DNA of 64,000 bases, taken from NCBI GenBank assembly GCA_001599355.1, contig BCGQ01000002.1, positions 881,554 to 945,553 of the forward strand. The letters are read 5' to 3'. Made by a program: the position numbers and the translations under genes. Source of the stretch: Nakazawaea peltata. Lineage: Eukaryota > Ascomycota > Pichiomycetes > Alaninales > Pachysolenaceae. The notes under the pieces were generated by a model. The model was not told where the DNA came from and did no database searches. It saw only the letters and a program-made list of their open reading frames with translations. Position 1 is the stretch's first letter. Every line of letters begins with the position of its first letter. Shown here one piece after another: positions 4,754 to 58,136 of this stretch.

Positions 4754-6381
4754 ATGAGAGAAATTGTACGTTGGAATCTTTGAACTAAGGGCGGTGATGT
4801 GCCGTTACAGACACGAGACGGATCAGACGAGTAAAGACGTGTTGGTGTGGCAAGAGAAAGGAATGAGCATGTTTATCAAGATTGGAATGTATTATCAATT
4901 TATCATGTAGCGCCAGGTATGGTCACATCACGTCTCGCCACGCTCCCACGCACCCACCACCTTATCCCTTTACAGCATATACTAACATAATCTAGATTCA
5001 TTTGTCTACTGGTCAGTGTGGTAACCAAATTGTAAGTAAAACAGATCGAATCAGACCATTTATCACATCATACTAACCATTCATATAGGGTGCTGCTTTC
5101 TGGCAAACCATTTGTGGTGAACACGGCTTAGACGCCGAAGGTAACTATCACGGTGACGACGATATCCAAACATCCAAGTTGAACGTTTATTTCAGCGAGG
5201 CTAACAGTGGAAAGTATGTACCAAGAGCTGTTATGATTGATTTGGAGCCAGGAACCATCGATGCTGTCAGATCTTCTTCTCACGGTAACTTATTCAGACC
5301 AGATAACTTCATCTATGGTCAATCTTCTGCCGGTAACGTTTGGGCTAAAGGTCACTACACTGAAGGTGCCGAATTAGTCGACTCTGTATTAGATGTTGTC
5401 AGAAGAGAAGCTGAAGGATGTGACTCTTTACAAGGTTTCCAAATCACCCACTCTTTGGGTGGTGGTACCGGTTCTGGTATGGGTACTTTATTGATTGCCA
5501 AGATTAGAGAGGAATTCCCAGACAGAATGATGGCTACTTTCTCCGTTGTTCCAAGTCCAAAGACTTCTGACACCGTCGTTGAACCATATAACGCTACCTT
5601 ATCTGTCCACCAATTGGTTGAGAATGCTGATGAGACCTTCTGTATCGATAACGAGGCCTTGTATGACATCTGTATGAAGACCTTGAAGTTGCCTCAACCA
5701 ACTTACGATGAGTTGAACCACTTGGTCTCCAGTGTTATGTCTGGTATCACTACTTCATTGCGTTACCCAGGTCAATTGAACTCTGACTTGAGAAAGTTGG
5801 CTGTTAACTTGGTTCCATTCCCAAGATTGCACTTCTTCATGGTTGGTTACGCTCCATTGACTTCTTTGGGCTCTCAATCTTTCAGATCTTTGACCGTTCC
5901 AGAATTGACCCAACAAATGTTCGACGCCAAGAACATGATGGCCCTGTCTGACCCAAGACATGGTCGTTACTTGACCGTTGCTACCTTCTTCAGAGGTAAG
6001 GTTTCTGTAAAGGAAGTTGAAGACGAGATGCACAAGGTACAAACACGAAACTCTGCTTACTTTGTCGAATGGATTCCAAATAACGTTCAAACTGCCATTT
6101 GTTCTGTCCCACCAAAGGGTCTTGACATGTCTGCTACCTTCATTGGTAACTCCACATCTATCCAAGAGTTGTTCAGAAGAGTCGGTGACCAATTCAGTGC
6201 CATGTTCAGAAGAAAGGCTTTCTTGCACTGGTACACAAGTGAAGGTATGGAAGAGATCGAATTCTCTGAGGCTGAATCTAACATGAATGACTTGGTCAGT
6301 GAATACCAACAATACCAAGATGCTGGTGATGATGACGAAGAGTTGGACTACGCTGATGAGGCTCCAATGGAAGAGATGTAA
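4754..6381 (+). CDS. TUB2: beta-tubulin (three exons)
   Basis: Exons are 4754-4765 (MREI), 4996-5031 (12 codons, [12 protein letters not shown]) and 5089-6381, giving 446 residues. Beta-tubulin pairs with alpha-tubulin to form spindle and cytoplasmic microtubules and binds the exchangeable GTP. The N-terminal GQCGNQ loop, the tubulin signature GGGTGSGMG, the MREI autoregulatory start and the acidic C-terminal tail ([14 protein letters not shown]) are all present, and identity with known fungal Tub2 is very high. Both introns have GT...AG ends and TACTAAC branch sites. The frame of exon 3 is open only from 5179 with a TTG, so an intron-blind annotation would lose the first 46 residues. The only in-frame CTG (5944-5946) sits at the Ala of the conserved MMAA(S/A)DPRHGRY segment. 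Confidence 0.97.
4766..4995 (+). other. TUB2: TUB2 intron 1
   Basis: Begins GTACGT after the 12-nt first exon and ends TAG. The branch site TACTAAC is at 4980-4986, only 9 nt from the acceptor. The spliced protein matches beta-tubulin exactly at the junction (MREI/IHLSTGQ). Confidence 0.93.
5032..5088 (+). other. TUB2: TUB2 intron 2
   Basis: 57 nt, from GTAAGT to TAG, with branch site TACTAAC at 5071-5077, 11 nt before the acceptor. The junction restores GNQI/GAAFW of beta-tubulin. Confidence 0.95.
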
Positions 6382-20786: not shown

Positions 20787-23249
20787 TTATTGGCTATTTG
20801 CCCAGTATTTAGTTCTTTTATTCGTCTCCACAACATCCCCCATCCTTCTCTTCTTATCGTCCGTATTAGTAATATCATTGAGTTTGCTAACACGTACAAG
20901 ACGCAGAATATGTTTATCACTTTCATTCTGCTCCTCCACTTGTATATCCTCCGATTTATCCATGAATAATCCAGTCCCATCATTAACCATTAATTGATAA
21001 CTCAATTGTTCTTTACGATTGGTATCTCTGAAGATGTCAATGATATCATTCTCACGTAACTTGATCTTCTTGTTCTTTCCAACTCTCACATTATTCACAT
21101 AACATCCATTAGTCGAGTTATCCAATAACCATAAATCTTCTAAACCTTGAGCAGCTGACTCGAAGATCGAATTGGCATTGACAGGGTGTCTTTTCTTCAA
21201 AATTATGCAATGAATCTTTGAACAACGGTCATCTAACAATTGGAAGTTACGACCTAAAATGAAGAGACTCTCACCTTGCTTGAAATATAATGATCGAGAA
21301 TTGGCAATTGACTCAGGGAGTTTCTGTAAAGTGATGAAAGTACCCATTGGAGTAGACATCGATGTTTTATTCAGTTTTGGTGTCGTTGTCATCGGCAGTA
21401 AATTGTTCTGTGATTCTGACAACTTCGAAGGATCTTGAATCTCGGGTATCACACGAGACTTCTTCTTCTTAACTGCAGATATTGCCATCTCATTTGTTGA
21501 TCCAAGAATACCATCAATACTGTTCTCATAGTCCGATGGACCAACCAAATCTGTTGTATCATCCATAGATTCATGTCTAGGTTGTTGAGATCTTGGGATC
21601 TCTTTGTTAATCAACTTCTTATTAGGTACTTTGAACAATGGAGCATTCAGTTGTGAGTCTGTATTATCGTCTGGCTTTTCTTCATCGTCGGACACAAGTT
21701 CTTCAGCCATATTCTCGTCTTCTTCAAAGAACACATCGTCAACAGGACGGTTATTTCTATGTTGAGACATCTTTGGCTGAGACATCTTTGGCTGAGACAT
21801 CTTGGTCTGTGATTCCAATCTCTTTTGTTGAGATTGAGATTGTGACAAACTTATCTGTGATTGGTTATTAGACTCTTCAAAGTCATGGAACCACTTATGT
21901 TGTAACAGTTCATGGGCACTGAGTCTTTTGTTCACATCCAACAGGAATAACTTATCTATAAAATCAATGGCATGGTCACTAATTTGTAAGTCTCGAAGTA
22001 AAGTCTTGTGATAATTCTTGTTGACAATATTAACAAACAAATCATCTTGAGTAGATCCACTGAATGGCAAATGAGCTGTCAAGATCACATATACTAAACA
22101 GGCTAATGACCACATATCGACTTTAGAAGAATATGTCTTTAAATCCACGTTCTGAGATTCAGGGGGAATCCGAGATTTCCCTTTGAATTTGGACTCTCCG
22201 AACTTACCTACAATAACTTCGGGAGCCACGTATGCTAAAGTTCCACAGAATGTCTTCATAACCGATGCACTGTCACTTATTTTGGCTAAACCGAAATCTG
22301 TCACTTTCACCTTGACTGGATCATCTTGAGCAATCAAAATATTATCAGGTTTAAGATCTCGATGAGAAATTCCCTTATCATGAACATATTCTATCAGTTC
22401 TAAAATCTGTCTGGTAATTTCACGTCCAGCACTCTCACCAACAGCACCATTAGCCGCCACAAAATCCATTAAATCTCCTCCAGGAACATACTCCATCACT
22501 AAATAATAGTTATCCATATCCTCATAAAACAGTTTAAGCCTCACTATACCTGGATGATCCAATCTTTTCAAAATTTCCAACTCCCGTTCGACTCCATCGA
22601 GTCCTCCGTTCATCAGTTTACGTTTAGAGATAATTTTCACAGCATAAGTGTCTCCAGTCTTACGTTCGATCAGTTTCTTAACAGTAGCAAATGCTCCAGA
22701 CCCCACTACTTCGTTCCTAATAAAGAAATCGGAGTGAATACCAAAATTGAGCCCCGACAGCGTGATATTCAGCGTCTCAATATCCTTAGGTATCACCACA
22801 ATGTACGTTATAACGTCTTCAGGGACACCATTCCCCACGGAAATCTCATCGCCTTGGGTTAATATGTAATTATTGTTCTTTACGACACGTGATCCATTCA
22901 AATAGGTACCATTAGTGGATAAATCTTGGAGCATCAAGTTCTTGATATTGCTCTTACTATTCAACCAAACCTTGAAGTGCTTATTACTAATTCTATTTGA
23001 TTTATTGTTCAATAAGAAGTCACAAACGTTGGCGTTTCGGCCAAAAATCCATTCCTGCTTGGAAGTCGCTGCCTTGGTCTTCAAATCCAAATGATTCTCG
23101 TTTATCCGACCCCCAGTGCATACCAATCGACAGATCACATTCTTACCGAAAGTTTCGTCGGAGGAGGCGAAGAGAGCCGGTCGCTGTGTCAGCAGCTGGG
23201 TGGGCTGCGTCATTTCCGGTGGAAATTTACTCGGCGACGTCTGCTCCAT
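20787..23249 (-). CDS. RAD53: checkpoint effector kinase Rad53 (CHK2 family)
   Basis: An 820-residue kinase with the diagnostic FHA1-kinase-FHA2 order. A TQ cluster (MTQPTQLLTQ) precedes FHA1 at about residues 45-140 (IFGRN, SNKHF, STNGTYLNGSR). The kinase domain is at about 172-445 (GSGAFATVKK, AVKIISKRK, HRDLKPDNILI, DFGLAK). An SQ-rich linker follows, then FHA2 at about 630-740 (FILGRNFQ, NSTNGCYVNNVRVG), and a basic C-terminal NLS-like KKRR...NKRTK. It transmits Mec1/Tel1 signals in replication stress and DNA damage. The frame opens at a GTG (23309) just after a stop, so the first ATG at 23249 is used; the resulting length matches S. cerevisiae Rad53 (821). Confidence 0.97.
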   Translation of the reverse strand: MEQTSPSKFPPEMTQPTQLLTQRPALFASSDETFGKNVICRLVCTGGRINENHLDLKTKAATSKQEWIFGRNANVCDFLLNNKSNRISNKHFKVWLNSKSNIKNLMLQDLSTNGTYLNGSRVVKNNNYILTQGDEISVGNGVPEDVITYIVVIPKDIETLNITLSGLNFGIHSDFFIRNEVVGSGAFATVKKLIERKTGDTYAVKIISKRKLMNGGLDGVERELEILKRLDHPGIVRLKLFYEDMDNYYLVMEYVPGGDLMDFVAANGAVGESAGREITRQILELIEYVHDKGISHRDLKPDNILIAQDDPVKVKVTDFGLAKISDSASVMKTFCGTLAYVAPEVIVGKFGESKFKGKSRIPPESQNVDLKTYSSKVDMWSLACLVYVILTAHLPFSGSTQDDLFVNIVNKNYHKTLLRDLQISDHAIDFIDKLFLLDVNKRLSAHELLQHKWFHDFEESNNQSQISLSQSQSQQKRLESQTKMSQPKMSQPKMSQHRNNRPVDDVFFEEDENMAEELVSDDEEKPDDNTDSQLNAPLFKVPNKKLINKEIPRSQQPRHESMDDTTDLVGPSDYENSIDGILGSTNEMAISAVKKKKSRVIPEIQDPSKLSESQNNLLPMTTTPKLNKTSMSTPMGTFITLQKLPESIANSRSLYFKQGESLFILGRNFQLLDDRCSKIHCIILKKRHPVNANSIFESAAQGLEDLWLLDNSTNGCYVNNVRVGKNKKIKLRENDIIDIFRDTNRKEQLSYQLMVNDGTGLFMDKSEDIQVEEQNESDKHILRLVRVSKLNDITNTDDKKRRMGDVVETNKRTKYWANSQ
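21761..21806 (-). repeat. RAD53: 15-bp in-frame tandem repeat in RAD53 SQ cluster
   Basis: Three to four copies of a 15-bp unit encode repeated KMSQP, adding SQ dipeptides (Mec1/Tel1-type phosphosites) in the linker between kinase and FHA2. Confidence 0.8.
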
Positions 23250-23391
23250 CTGAAGATGATTCAATTGTCGGGATTTACCGTGAGATTTGATTTGATTTTG
23301 AGATGGCACTTAACTTTGAGATGGGTTTGGTTGTCGCCGCGGAGGTTCAGGCGCGCGGTTTGGTGGTGATTTTTTCGAGAATTTTTGGGTT

Positions 23392-36252: not shown

Positions 36253-37368
36253 ATGTCGAACGAGAAGAAACCAGGATTAGCTAACGAGGCCGTTTTCGTT
36301 GCATCTGAGCCAGTTCCAGAAGATGTCGACACCGTCCAAGGTATCGACTACTCCAAGCCTGAGTCTCGTAACTCCAGCGCTAAAGACTTGATCAAGGGGA
36401 TGAAGACTATGGGATTCCAACTGTCTTCGGTTGCCCAGCTGTGTGATATCATCGAGGCAATGCGTGCTTGGAGAGGTAAGCATATTGATGAGTTAGAAGA
36501 GCATGACAGAAAGGGAGAATTCGATGAGGATGGATACCAGAAGACCACCATTTTCATGGGTTACACTTCGAATTTGATCAGTTCAGGTTTAAGAGACACT
36601 TTGAGGTTCCTTGTACAACACAAGATGGTCAGCGCTATTGTTGCCACTGCTGGTGGTATTGAAGAGGATTTAATCAAATGTTTGCTGCCAACTTATATGG
36701 GAGATTTCCACTTACAAGGCTCGGCTTTAAGAGAGAAAGGTATGAATCGTATTGGTAATTTGTTAGTTCCTAATGATAATTACTGTAAATTTGAGGAATG
36801 GATCGTTCCTATTCTCGACACCATGTTGGAAGAACAAGAAGAGAACGCCAAGGCCGGCACGGCTTATGATGCCGACGTTCCTTTCTGGACCCCTTCAAAG
36901 GTCATCGATAGATTCGGAAAAGAGATCAACGATGAGTCTTCGGTCTTGTATTGGGCCCATAAAAACAAGATCCCAATCTTCTGTCCTCTGTTGACCGACG
37001 GAAGTATTGGAGACATGTTATTCTTCCACACTTTCAAAGCCTCTCCTAAACAATTACGTATCGATATCGTAAATGACATCAGAAGAATTAACTCCATGTC
37101 CATGGAGGCCAGTAGAGCTGGTATGCTTATTCTTGGAGGAGGTTTGATCAAGCACCATATTGCCAATGCCTGTCTTATGAGAAACGGAGCCGACTGGGCC
37201 GTCTATATTAACACTGGTCAAGAATATGACGGTTCTGATGCCGGTGCTAGACCAGATGAGGCCATCTCTTGGGGTAAAATTAAAGCCGATGCCAAGTCCG
37301 TCAAAGTTTATGCCGATGTTACCGTTGTGTTCCCATTAATTGTAGCAGCTACATTTGCTTCTAAATAG
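36253..37368 (+). CDS. DYS1: deoxyhypusine synthase
   Basis: A 371-residue enzyme. It transfers the aminobutyl group of spermidine, using NAD, to one lysine of eIF5A (Hyp2/Anb1), the first step of hypusine formation. Strong matches to S. cerevisiae Dys1 include [59 protein letters not shown], the catalytic Lys300 in [17 protein letters not shown], and [18 protein letters not shown]. All four in-frame CTG codons (36421, 36439, 36685, 36988) fall where yeast or human orthologs have Ala (MGFQASSV, .ACEII, KCLAPTY, SPALTDG). It converges on HPR1 with 24 bp between. Confidence 0.98.
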
Positions 37369-49291: not shown

Positions 49292-51451
49292 CTAGATACC
49301 AGATCTGTAGATGGAGGTGTTTTGGCTTCTGAATTGAATGGTATCCCTCCGACTCAATACCAACAACAGCTTCTCCAATGAATATCTATTGTAACCTTTA
49401 TGGGTGATGAACTCTTTCTCCAAAGTGTTTCTTGAGGTCGACCATCCAATTGGTAATCTTCTCTTGACTTGAGCCATGATCTTTTCAATTTCATCCTTAG
49501 TTTTCTCATTCTCGTTATTTGAGTCATTGTTGATAGCACTCAAAGTGGAAGCATGGAATAATCTCAACAGCTCAGTGACGTGACGCTCCGTCAGTATAGG
49601 ACTCAATTCCAATTTCAGTAACGACTCGGTGATTCTAATAGTAGCCTCTAATTGTCTAACAGTAATTGGAATAGAAGATCTCTCATTCAAATGAGCTTCC
49701 AGTTCATGAACTTGCTTTCTGATGTTAATGAACTCGGAAGACAACAATTCAGACAGCTCTTTAGATAATCTCGGAGCACATTTAGTTTTACAGTAATTGA
49801 TATATCTCTTCATCTTCAATAATGGAATATCACCCTCGGCTTGTTGTTGATCCATCTCCGCACCAGTATGAATATTCATAACATGTCTAGCCATCGATGT
49901 ATCTCTTTCAACGTTATGGTCATCTTTAATGATGAAGATCAAATCGAATCTGGAAAGAATAGTCGATTGGAAATCGATATTTTCTCCCGCACTCTTGACG
50001 TCATCATATCTACCAAAGATAGGATTCAGAGCCAGCAAAACCGAGGTTCTGGAGTTCAAAATAGTAGTAATACCGGCCTTGGCAATACTGATAGTCTGTT
50101 GTTCCATCAGCTCGTGGATCAGCACTCTGTCCTCATCTCTCATCTTATCAAACTCATCGATACAGACCACACCACCATCAGCCAAAACCATAGCACCTCC
50201 TTCCAAATAGAATTCTCTAGTGGCAGGATCTCTTTGGACAGTCAGGGTCAAACCGGCAGCAGAAGAACCTTTACCAGATGTATAAATGGAGATTGGGGAG
50301 ACCTTCTCAACGAATTTCAACAATTGAGATTTCAGAGTACCTGGGTCACCAAGAAGTAAAACATTGATATCTCCTCTTAATCTCAGACCATCAAACAAGA
50401 TCTTCTTCGAACCCCCCATAAGCAAACACGTGATCAGCTTCTTGATATCTTCATTACCGAAAATGGAAGGAGCGATGGAACGCGAGAATTTCTCGTAAAT
50501 TTCAGGGTCACGTGATATCTGTAAGAATTCTTCCTCTTCTTCTTCTGTGAATTGTAACTGGTTGGCAAGACTGGTGTCACTTTCGATACCTAACACTTTA
50601 AGATATGGGTTTCTGATGGCAATACCACCTCCAGAACTTGGACCACCTTGTTTTTTCAGTTGGTAAATCAGATAAATACCGGTGACGGTACATTTGTTAC
50701 CTGGGATCAATCTGTTGGTCAAGTTTCTGTTAACCGTCAACATGATATGTCTTGGTAATTCACCCACTGGAACATCTTCTGGGTTCTCTTGTAATTTCAA
50801 CACTTGTTCATCGACAAATTGTGATTTGTCATGGATGATGATATATGGATCAATACCACATTGGTCTTTCTCCAATTTTTCACCTTGACATTTCTTAGGT
50901 AATTGGATAGGACCAAAATTCGATTGGATCTTCAAGTTTTGTGTATGTTTACAGCTTTTACACATAATCGAGGTCATTGTCAGTTTCGAGTTCAAGGTGG
51001 AGGTAGAGATGATGATACCTGAGATTCTGACAATCTTGGAAATATATTCACTGGACAAATCTCTGATAGTGACTTGATTGTTTTGTGAAATTAAGATCAA
51101 CTGACACGTTGGGAAATTGAGAGGAATCTGCTCATTTGTCAAATATAAAATCTTCTTCAGGATCTCGGTGATCGATTGCTCGAACAACGGGATCATTTCT
51201 GTTGGATCATCATTCAATCTCTTATTCAACTCTTCATTGTACACAATCAAGTGTTCATTCAAAACCTCAAGCTTATAACTTTTGGAAAGCAAATTCTCAC
51301 GTAACTGATCTCTATAGATGAACTGGTTATCGATTCTGAACTCCAAAATGAAGTTTTTGAACATCTTGATGATCTCGGAGAACTGGTCATCCGAAACATC
51401 TTCAGGAGGCAACACTGAAGCCCCGTATACGGCTGGACTATCAAATGACAT
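49292..51451 (-). CDS. MCM5: replicative helicase subunit Mcm5
   Basis: A 719-residue subunit of the Mcm2-7 helicase. The N-terminal half has the zinc-finger pair CKSCKH and CQGEKLEKDQCG. The AAA+ half has Walker A GDPGT-x-KSQ at residues 368-376, the continuous VLADGGVVCIDEFDKMRDEDRV (Walker B and sensor region) and the arginine finger SRFD at 500-503. At residue 373 the codon is CTG where every MCM has Ala. At least nine CTG codons of this gene fall on Ala positions of S. cerevisiae Mcm5. The promoter has an MCB and Mcm1-type elements, matching the G1/S and M/G1 control known for MCM5/CDC46. Confidence 0.98.
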   Translation of the reverse strand: MSFDSPAVYGASVLPPEDVSDDQFSEIIKMFKNFILEFRIDNQFIYRDQLRENLLSKSYKLEVLNEHLIVYNEELNKRLNDDPTEMIPLFEQSITEILKKILYLTNEQIPLNFPTCQLILISQNNQVTIRDLSSEYISKIVRISGIIISTSTLNSKLTMTSIMCKSCKHTQNLKIQSNFGPIQLPKKCQGEKLEKDQCGIDPYIIIHDKSQFVDEQVLKLQENPEDVPVGELPRHIMLTVNRNLTNRLIPGNKCTVTGIYLIYQLKKQGGPSSGGGIAIRNPYLKVLGIESDTSLANQLQFTEEEEEEFLQISRDPEIYEKFSRSIAPSIFGNEDIKKLITCLLMGGSKKILFDGLRLRGDINVLLLGDPGTLKSQLLKFVEKVSPISIYTSGKGSSAAGLTLTVQRDPATREFYLEGGAMVLADGGVVCIDEFDKMRDEDRVLIHELMEQQTISIAKAGITTILNSRTSVLLALNPIFGRYDDVKSAGENIDFQSTILSRFDLIFIIKDDHNVERDTSMARHVMNIHTGAEMDQQQAEGDIPLLKMKRYINYCKTKCAPRLSKELSELLSSEFINIRKQVHELEAHLNERSSIPITVRQLEATIRITESLLKLELSPILTERHVTELLRLFHASTLSAINNDSNNENEKTKDEIEKIMAQVKRRLPIGWSTSRNTLEKEFITHKGYNRYSLEKLLLVLSRRDTIQFRSQNTSIYRSGI

Positions 51452-56168: not shown

Positions 56169-58136
56169 ATGAGCTATATCACTGAATCCAGAATGTTATC
56201 CGAAAGACGTCCTTCCATTGCCGAAAGAAGAGGCAGTATTGCTCTGCTGCTTGCCGAGGGCTCCGGTTCGGCTTCACCAAGTGGAGTAATCGACGGCGCT
56301 ACAGCAAGAAGACCTTCTATTATTCCATCTTTGGCTGGAATTGAAAAGCCAGAATCTGACCAAGTCGTTCCTGATGAATGTGATGTCATAATCATCGGAA
56401 CTGGTCTTGTCGAGAGTATATTACTGCTGTCTTTACAATGGCAAGGAACCAACGTTTTACATATCGATAATAATCCTTACTATGGTGATACTTCCGCTAC
56501 TTTGACTATTGATCAGTTGAAGGTCTGGACCGAGAATGTCAACGCCAAGAAGCCAGGCTTCTACGGTTATTCAAATGCCATGTTATACATCCCAAGACCA
56601 CAAGAATTGGTCTCGAAAGAATACGGAATTGATATCAATCCTCGTATTTTATTTCTGAAATCCGATTTACTCACTTTGTTGATCAAATCTAGAGTGTACA
56701 AATACTTGGAATTCTTACCATTAAGTACATATCATACATATGAGAACGATAACTTCGAGAAGATCGCCTCTACCAAGGAAGATATCTTCACCGATCAATC
56801 CTTGTCTCTTGCAACCAAGAGATACCTTATGAAGTTTATGAAGTTTGTTTTTAACTACGAGCACGAGTTGGACTCTTGGAAATCTTATCTGGATAAACCT
56901 TTCCAAGAATTCATCGAGCAAAATTACAAGTTGCTGCAACTGCAATTGAATGAGATTATCTTCTCTATTCTGTTATCGTCTACTCTGAGCATTTCTACTA
57001 AGGAAGGTCTTTCAAGAGTACGCCGTTATCTTTCTTCGTTTGAAGTTTACGGTGAATTCCCTGCTATGTACTCGAAGTATGGTGGTCCGGGTGAAGTTTC
57101 TCAAGGTTTCTGTAGATCGCTGGCCGTTGCCGGTGCCACTTATAAGTTGAATACCAGATTGGAGTCTTTTGACGAGCAATCTAAGGTTGCCAAGTTCTCT
57201 GATGGAACTTCTATCAAGGTCAATGAGAAGATCGTTTGTTCTCCTTCTCAACTGCCTTCCATTCAGACTTCTAGTTTACCTAAACAGAAATATGAAATTT
57301 CTAGATTGGTCGCTGTTGTCAAGAAATCATGTAAAGAATGGATGATTGAACGTGAGAATGCATGCCTTGTTATCTTCCCTCCTCACTCGTTGCCTACTGA
57401 TAATGAATATCCAATCCAAGTATTGATCCAAGGAGCTGGTGCCGGTGTCTGTCCTTCTGGTCAAAGTGTTTGGTATTTGTCTACAGTGGAGAAAGGTGAA
57501 CGTGCTAGATCTGATTTGGAACTGCTGTTACTGAAATTAGAAGAGAGTTTGCTTAGAGAAAGTGAAGAAGATGGATTGGGTACTGTCTTGGATCAAGAAG
57601 AGATCTTTAGCAATAGTAACATGATTAATAGTGTCAAATTGGGCAAGTCTTTGAAAGATTTCGTTCCAAAACAAAAGATTCAATACTTGTTCAAGTTGGT
57701 ATTCACTCAATTCACTTCTACTCCTCACTTTGGTGTGGTAAATTCCAAGTTATTCAAGCATGAAGAATCCTCAGACCATACTCTCATTTACTCGAATATG
57801 CCTTCTTCAGAGATTTCTTATGATGGTGTGATAACCGAATCCAAGATCTTGTACTCCAAGATCGTTGGTGATGACGAAGACTTCTTTGAAATCGATTTCG
57901 AGGATGAAGAAGAGTTCTCTCATGATCAAAAGATGGCCATTCTGCTGGTGACTCTGGAAAACGAAAGAAGTAGAAGAAACAGCAGCTTATCTCCTCAATT
58001 CCGCTCTCAAGCTAAACCATATCAACTGTTCTTCCAAGAGCCATTGAATCTGCTGCTGTCTGCTCAAGCTGCTGCTCGTTCAAATGATAGTGCAATCGAA
58101 GATGGTGATGACATTGAGATGGATTTTGATTTATAG
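56169..58136 (+). CDS. MRS6: Rab escort protein Mrs6
   Basis: A 655-residue protein of the GDI/CHM family. It presents newly made Rab GTPases (Ypt1, Sec4 and others) to geranylgeranyl transferase II (Bet2-Bet4). The FAD-fold-like start DVIIIGTGLVESIL, then QGTNVLHIDNNPYYGDTSATLT, YGGPGEVSQGFCRSLAVAGATYKLN and the C-terminal FTQFTSTPHFGVV are all typical. A Ser/Arg-rich N-terminal extension of ~65 residues precedes the fold, as in other yeast Mrs6. Two adjacent CTG codons (56424-56429) lie exactly at the Ala-Ala of VESVLAA in S. cerevisiae. The acidic C-terminus follows a Sec4-contacting region. Full length against S. cerevisiae Mrs6 (603). Confidence 0.95.
   Translation: MSYITESRMLSERRPSIAERRGSIALLLAEGSGSASPSGVIDGATARRPSIIPSLAGIEKPESDQVVPDECDVIIIGTGLVESILLLSLQWQGTNVLHIDNNPYYGDTSATLTIDQLKVWTENVNAKKPGFYGYSNAMLYIPRPQELVSKEYGIDINPRILFLKSDLLTLLIKSRVYKYLEFLPLSTYHTYENDNFEKIASTKEDIFTDQSLSLATKRYLMKFMKFVFNYEHELDSWKSYLDKPFQEFIEQNYKLLQLQLNEIIFSILLSSTLSISTKEGLSRVRRYLSSFEVYGEFPAMYSKYGGPGEVSQGFCRSLAVAGATYKLNTRLESFDEQSKVAKFSDGTSIKVNEKIVCSPSQLPSIQTSSLPKQKYEISRLVAVVKKSCKEWMIERENACLVIFPPHSLPTDNEYPIQVLIQGAGAGVCPSGQSVWYLSTVEKGERARSDLELLLLKLEESLLRESEEDGLGTVLDQEEIFSNSNMINSVKLGKSLKDFVPKQKIQYLFKLVFTQFTSTPHFGVVNSKLFKHEESSDHTLIYSNMPSSEISYDGVITESKILYSKIVGDDEDFFEIDFEDEEEFSHDQKMAILLVTLENERSRRNSSLSPQFRSQAKPYQLFFQEPLNLLLSAQAAARSNDSAIEDGDDIEMDFDL

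Follow-up and report, generated by a model that had tools for sequence, protein, structure and literature searches.

CTG codons stand on alanine positions of MCM5 and other nuclear genes in a budding yeast grouping with Pachysolen, in line with a CUG-Ala code

Does a yeast whose MCM5 gene carries CTG codons where the protein family has alanine also read CUG as alanine? This question was raised by a preliminary description of a 64,000-nucleotide stretch of DNA (here called the window; contig C2:881554-945553 of an assembly of 11.63 Mb in 11 contigs), which proposed a nuclear CUG-Ala code (NCBI table 26) of the Pachysolen/Nakazawaea clade and held leucine or serine to be ill-suited at nine listed MCM5 sites. 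In the window, MCM5 is a single uninterrupted ORF on the minus strand (49292-51451, 719 aa) with the Pfam domains MCM, MCM_OB, MCM_lid and MCM5_C and 18 in-frame CTG codons. For the alignment CTG was translated as X, so that no residue was favoured. A total of 8000 relatives were scored and the best 120 listed; the nearest (P0001) was left out and two were removed because of their length, so that 117 sequences remained.

All nine CTGs named in the preliminary description are in frame, in the motifs claimed and on alanine positions of the family. Alanine is found in 117/117 relatives at eight of them, all on the minus strand: codon 373 in the Walker A motif GDPGT[A]KSQ (50333-50335), codon 403 in GLT[A] (50243-50245), codons 444 and 448 in RV[A]IHE and IHE[A]MEQ (50120-50122 and 50108-50110), codons 473 and 475 in SVL[A] and A[A]NP (50033-50035 and 50027-50029), codon 612 in SL[A]KLEL (49616-49618) and codon 628 in xE[A]xRLF (49568-49570). 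At the ninth, codon 620 in PI[A]xERH (49592-49594, minus strand), alanine is found in 116/117. Two additional CTGs lie inside the interval spanned by these nine, again on the minus strand: codon 566 (49754-49756; Ala 116/117) and codon 584 (49700-49702), a variable and uninformative site (Asn 58, Lys 21 of 117). The seven CTG codons outside this interval comprise four with an alanine majority (98, 157, 339 and 695), two where serine is the commonest residue (261, Ser 87 of 117, and 265, Ser 61 of 117) and a counter-example at a conserved methionine site (codon 356, 50384-50386, minus strand; Met 107/117, Ala 0). The MCM5 record is thus imperfect, because codons 261, 265 and 356 depart from alanine. 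Over all 18 columns, the commonest residue is Ala at 14, Ser at 2, Met at 1, Asn at 1 and Leu at 0. The objection to leucine or serine at the nine listed sites therefore stands: alanine is present there in at least 116/117 relatives and no CTG column of MCM5 has leucine as its commonest residue.

Two further window genes served as independent tests: MRS6 (Rab escort protein, GDI family; 56169-58136, plus strand, 22 CTG codons) and a RAD53-like FHA/kinase gene (20787-23309, minus strand, 14 CTG codons). MRS6 was aligned with 119 relatives and RAD53 with 118/119, the nearest sister protein being set aside in each case, and CTG columns that were too gappy were excluded (9/22 in MRS6, 5/14 in RAD53 and 0/18 in MCM5). 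Across the three genes, 23 CTG columns were at least 80% conserved, and their residue was Ala at 21, Met at 1 and Gly at 1, with Leu and Ser at 0. At the same conservation level, control codons of the same genes followed their standard meaning: TTG fell on Leu in 48/53 columns, CTT in 13/13 and TTA in 30/33; GCT fell on Ala in 16/17 and GCC in 10/11; and TCT fell on Ser in 19/20, the TCN codons together (n=56) giving Ser 52 and Ala 3. Alanine at the CTG columns is not a chance outcome, because 0/99 conserved CTT, TTA or TTG columns carry it. When the level was lowered to at least 50% conservation, 33 CTG columns gave Ala 24, Ser 2, Glu 2, Gly 2, Met 1, Pro 1, Gln 1 and Leu 0. Contrary columns do occur: MRS6 codon 268 stands on a conserved Gly, and several MRS6 and RAD53 columns have Glu, Pro, Gly, Gln or Ser.

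We also compared seven extra proteins, chosen for having solved relatives, with their best solved-structure match, writing CTG as X and reading the alignments by eye. These were a kinesin, an ABC transporter, Prp46, deoxyhypusine synthase and Pus7 from the window, and MCM3 and MCM4 from contig C4. We excluded CTGs in gaps, in unaligned parts, in the truncated end of the ABC transporter alignment and, five in number, in a low-complexity kinesin stretch of ambiguous alignment; the remaining 43 sites matched Ala 20, Ser 6, Thr 3, Lys 2, Asn 2, Gly 2, Cys 2, Val 2, Gln 1, Met 1, Asp 1, Pro 1 and Leu 0. In deoxyhypusine synthase (36253-37368, plus strand), all 4 CTG codons are aligned with Ala in its best PDB match. 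The alanine share of this set is lower because a single homolog guides less well than a conserved column. Pfam scores were then compared under translation tables 11, 12 and 26 for ten proteins out of the 30 scanned with CTG as Leu; summed over the ten, main-domain bits were highest with Ala (2041.3), followed by Ser (2005.0) and Leu (1936.5), and Ser was narrowly ahead for 2/10 domains (GDI, 152.7 Ala vs 153.0 Ser; DUF155, 142.7 Ala vs 143.9 Ser). Altogether, the residue matched by CTG in MCM5 and other core proteins, which the preliminary description had proposed to tabulate, is mainly alanine (21/23 conserved columns and 20/43 structure-matched sites), and neither leucine nor serine is dominant in these genes, the pattern that the description had named, for a genome-wide table, as telling against its claim.

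A tRNA gene with anticodon CAG was found at C4:81426-81498 by a pattern search of the genome and ARAGORN. It scores 50.9 bits against RF00005 when filters are lax (gathering threshold 29), and its features are G1:C72, G2:C71, G3:U70, a U6-U67 mismatch, A73, a short variable loop and a T-run just behind the gene. BLAST of the genome returned one copy. ARAGORN labels it Leu, since it assigns amino acids by what an anticodon means in the standard code. Alanyl-tRNA synthetase (AlaRS) is known to recognize its tRNAs chiefly by G3:U70, and among 16 short-variable-arm tRNAs of the genome (alignment read by eye) this pair is carried by tRNA(CAG) and two Ala types alone. A tRNA(CAG) with alanine identity elements, which the preliminary description suggested looking for, is therefore present; the one copy seen has G3:U70 and A73. 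A first CAG pattern gave 74 matches vs 107 in a reversed control, hence no excess; 30/74 were scanned by ARAGORN and the other 44 inspected as strings, and two of the matches lay in the genes for Leu(AAG) and Leu(UAG), where TCAG falls outside the anticodon. A second pattern gave 38 matches vs 13 in the control, and tRNA(CAG) was among the 30/38 scanned by ARAGORN. A genome-wide RF00005 search (63 tRNAs, 48 of them fetched) missed tRNA(CAG), as did a default Rfam scan of its locus, and folding it as a lone RNA strand was uninformative (z 0.15).

Searching by A box, we found 16 Leu- or Ser-type tRNA genes: 9 Leu (CAA 5, TAA 2, TAG 1, AAG 1) and 7 Ser (AGA 3, GCT 2, TGA 1, CGA 1). ARAGORN reports one of these genes as Val(CAC), which we read instead as an intron-containing Leu(CAA). 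The anticodon CAG occurs in 0/16 of the genes found by these pattern searches, which are not exhaustive. When the genome was searched with two patterns for a type II tRNA(CAG), allowing for a short intron or none, 5 and 3 matches came up vs 4 and 3 in controls; the matches include a Leu(AAG) gene and a Thr(AGU) gene, the remainder are at control level, and two from the second search were judged on part of their sequence only. Within the limits of such pattern searches, we thus saw no tRNA(CAG) of Leu or Ser identity that would stand in for an Ala-type one, the finding that the preliminary description had named as fatal to its claim. The tRNA-Leu(UAG) gene (contig C4, ~804530-804715) has an unusually long intron, and the ARAGORN prediction for it spans 208 bases.

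These tRNA genes bear on the alternative that survives best, namely that CUG is read mainly as alanine with a measurable share of leucine, either by leucylation of tRNA(CAG) or by wobble reading by tRNA-Leu(UAG). The tRNA(CAG) carries G37, like the Leu tRNAs seen here, whereas the Ala and Val tRNAs seen have A37, and the available text of PMC5951914 blames G37 for 3% leucine mischarging of the C. albicans tRNA-Ser(CAG). Moreover, tRNA-Leu(UAG) is present, and with an unmodified U34 it could read CUG. Nevertheless, CTG stands on invariant alanine sites such as the Walker A motif, where mixing would carry a cost, and the variable arm of tRNA(CAG) is short, unlike that of tRNA-Leu. We consider appreciable leucine at CUG unlikely.

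To place the yeast, the nearest MCM5 among the matches listed is P0001 (source label lgn, which we take to mean assembled public reads), with 88% identity without CTG sites (617/701), followed by that of Pachysolen tannophilus with 75% (526/700 without CTG sites). No identical MCM5 protein was present among the 120 matches listed, and no protein named as Nakazawaea or Peterozyma was seen among the 120 matches listed each for MCM5, MRS6 and RAD53. In trees built, with CTG masked, from 26 MCM5 and 19 MRS6 proteins, the query, its sister and P. tannophilus group together with 100% support. NCBI taxonomy includes Pachysolen, Nakazawaea and Peterozyma in the order Alaninales.

The sister proteins carry leucine at some alanine-majority columns that are CTG in the window: six in the MCM5 protein P0001, two in the RAD53 protein P0241 and none in the MRS6 protein P0121. 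At the fourteen alanine-majority CTG columns of MCM5, P0001 has Leu at six and Ala at eight. This is what a sister with CTG at the six leucine positions, translated with the standard code, would show, and sister-species proteins in the protein collection thus look to have been translated with the wrong code.

Reading of CUG as serine (table 12, CUG-Ser1 or Ser2) fares much worse. Ser does rank above Leu in the Pfam sums and is found at 6/43 PDB sites and as the commonest residue of 2/18 MCM5 columns. Against this, conserved CTG columns have Ser at 0/23 and Ala at 21/23, while TCN codons give 52 Ser vs 3 Ala of 56; CAG occurs in 0/7 Ser-type tRNA genes found; and the sampled Ser1 and Ser2 yeasts are placed elsewhere in the MCM5 and MRS6 trees. 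On the masked alignments, the Pfam comparison of tables 11, 12 and 26 and the tRNA search, we rejected it as extremely improbable. The standard code, under which CUG is leucine and the MCM5 codons would reflect genuine substitutions, a pseudogene or an artefact, could draw on the tRNA-Leu(UAG) gene, since wobble lets a tRNA of this kind read CUG in some yeasts according to the sections available of PMC5951914, but it was rejected on the masked alignments, Pfam scores and tRNA search as having a negligible chance of being right: the MCM5 frame is fully open with all expected domains, leucine would be put at invariant alanine sites (Walker A included) and is found at 0/23 conserved CTG columns of the three genes, and the genome holds an Ala-type tRNA(CAG).

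We conclude that the window almost certainly derives from the nuclear genome of a budding yeast in the Alaninales (Pachysolenaceae) that uses table 26, with CUG read by a tRNA(CAG) that would be charged with alanine, and the ancestral tRNA-Leu(CAG) probably gone. CTG lies on alanine positions, a tRNA gene with G3:U70 and A73 is present, and the proteins group with Pachysolen. In the proposed mechanism, AlaRS would charge tRNA(CAG) through the determinants G3:U70 and A73, alanine would be the sole decoding of CUG, and tRNA-Leu(CAG) would have been lost from the lineage. The CTG columns, the tRNA(CAG) and the trees all support the code and clade assigned in the preliminary description.

Where did this tRNA come from? 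In the part of PMC5951914 at hand, the tRNA(CAG) of the Ala clade is said to stem from a tRNA-Ala by anticodon change. When compared with tRNAs of the same genome, tRNA(CAG) matches Ala(AGC) at 49 positions and Val(UAC) at 51, which is about equal. It is closer to Val(UAC) in the D arm (17 vs 13) and the anticodon arm (9 vs 6), and closer to Ala(AGC) in the acceptor (10 vs 9), the variable loop (5 vs 4), the T arm (14 vs 12) and at position 73. With 20 own tRNAs and the anticodon kept, FastTree joins CAG to Val(UAC) (0.93) and IQ-TREE gives no resolution; with 16 own tRNAs and the anticodon masked, CAG groups with Val(UAC) at UFBoot 79, and a grouping of CAG with Ala is not rejected (AU p 0.30). 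The Val anticodon CAC is one base from CAG. Limited pattern searches of the genome showed five Val(AAC) genes, one Val(UAC) gene and no Val(CAC) gene. Since the Val(UAC) of this genome carries U3:G70, a Val origin would require a change on both sides of that pair. On these sequence comparisons, it is conceivable, though rather unlikely, that tRNA(CAG) is not a simple anticodon change of tRNA-Ala and that it instead arose from a tRNA-Val(CAC) that gained G3:U70 and hence was given to AlaRS, or as a Val/Ala mosaic. Nothing on a Val-type origin of the CUG-Ala tRNA was found in the literature searched, which lacked the main discovery papers. Because tRNA(CAG) looks partly like a tRNA-Val, orthologs offer a way to test how the reassigning tRNA arose.

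CTG is a common codon in this yeast. It makes up 28.9% (309/1068) of CTG plus GCN codons over 30 ORFs of the window and 26.5% (571/2155) in 51 ORFs elsewhere in the genome, a sample of loci fetched for other reasons. Over 32 window ORFs it is the second commonest Ala codon (317, vs 353 for GCT), and it occupies 21/50 of the conserved alanine columns with CTG or GCN in the three aligned genes. The available account of code-changed clades in PMC5951914 describes CUG as a fairly uncommon codon at sites of low conservation; here, in contrast, CTG is common and stands on invariant alanine sites in the genes tested. The reassigned codon thus looks fully settled in core genes of this yeast.

CTG use within the MCM set is skewed, despite the six MCM proteins forming one complex: MCM5 has 18/42 CTG among CTG plus GCN codons (stop-to-stop frame) vs 28/302 across the remaining five MCM genes (post hoc Fisher p 2.7e-7). 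Genome-wide the MCM5 share is not extreme, being reached by 7/51 ORFs of the sample. A tubulin frame (5179-6381) has 1 CTG vs 26 GCN; genes such as tubulin are usually highly expressed. This frame starts within the protein and has no initial Met, so a 5' exon and an intron probably lie upstream.

The code itself is already described, and this case adds another yeast of the known CUG-Ala clade; the finding is correct but the code known, because the clade has been described and has its own NCBI order, Alaninales. Muhlhausen 2016 and Riley 2016 are reportedly the discovery papers. In the text available to us, Krassowski et al. 2018 give the Ala clade as Pachysolen, Nakazawaea and Peterozyma, together with its tRNA(CAG) (PMC5951914), and a Codetta screen of 462 yeasts, 453 of them in line with known CUG meanings, treats CUG-Ala as a known class in the excerpts at hand (PMC8629427). 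Codon-usage work handles Alaninales as CTG = Ala in the portion available (PMC11540330), and a review, as far as its accessible text goes, likewise takes Alaninales CTG as Ala (PMC11415595). Our yeast resembles these CUG-Ala (table 26) Alaninales in having CTG on alanine sites, a tRNA(CAG) with Ala identity elements and 100% support for its grouping with Pachysolen. No tRNA-Leu(CAG) was seen among the 16 Leu/Ser-type genes found by the pattern searches. Its MCM5 is 75% identical to that of P. tannophilus, which makes it another species, and its 11.6 Mb genome in 11 contigs is added to a small clade whose code change is among the few nuclear sense-codon reassignments. The CUG-Ser1 and CUG-Ser2 codes, as presented in the accessible part of PMC5951914, likewise concern the same codon and a new tRNA with anticodon CAG; in the present case, by contrast, the tRNA has a short variable arm and G3:U70, and CTG falls on alanine columns. 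The capture of leucine-box codons by alanine has a further parallel in Ashbya mitochondria, where CUU and CUA are read as alanine according to the available text of PMC3874161, but the codons there are other ones, and the genes studied here (MCM5, MRS6 and RAD53) are taken as nuclear.
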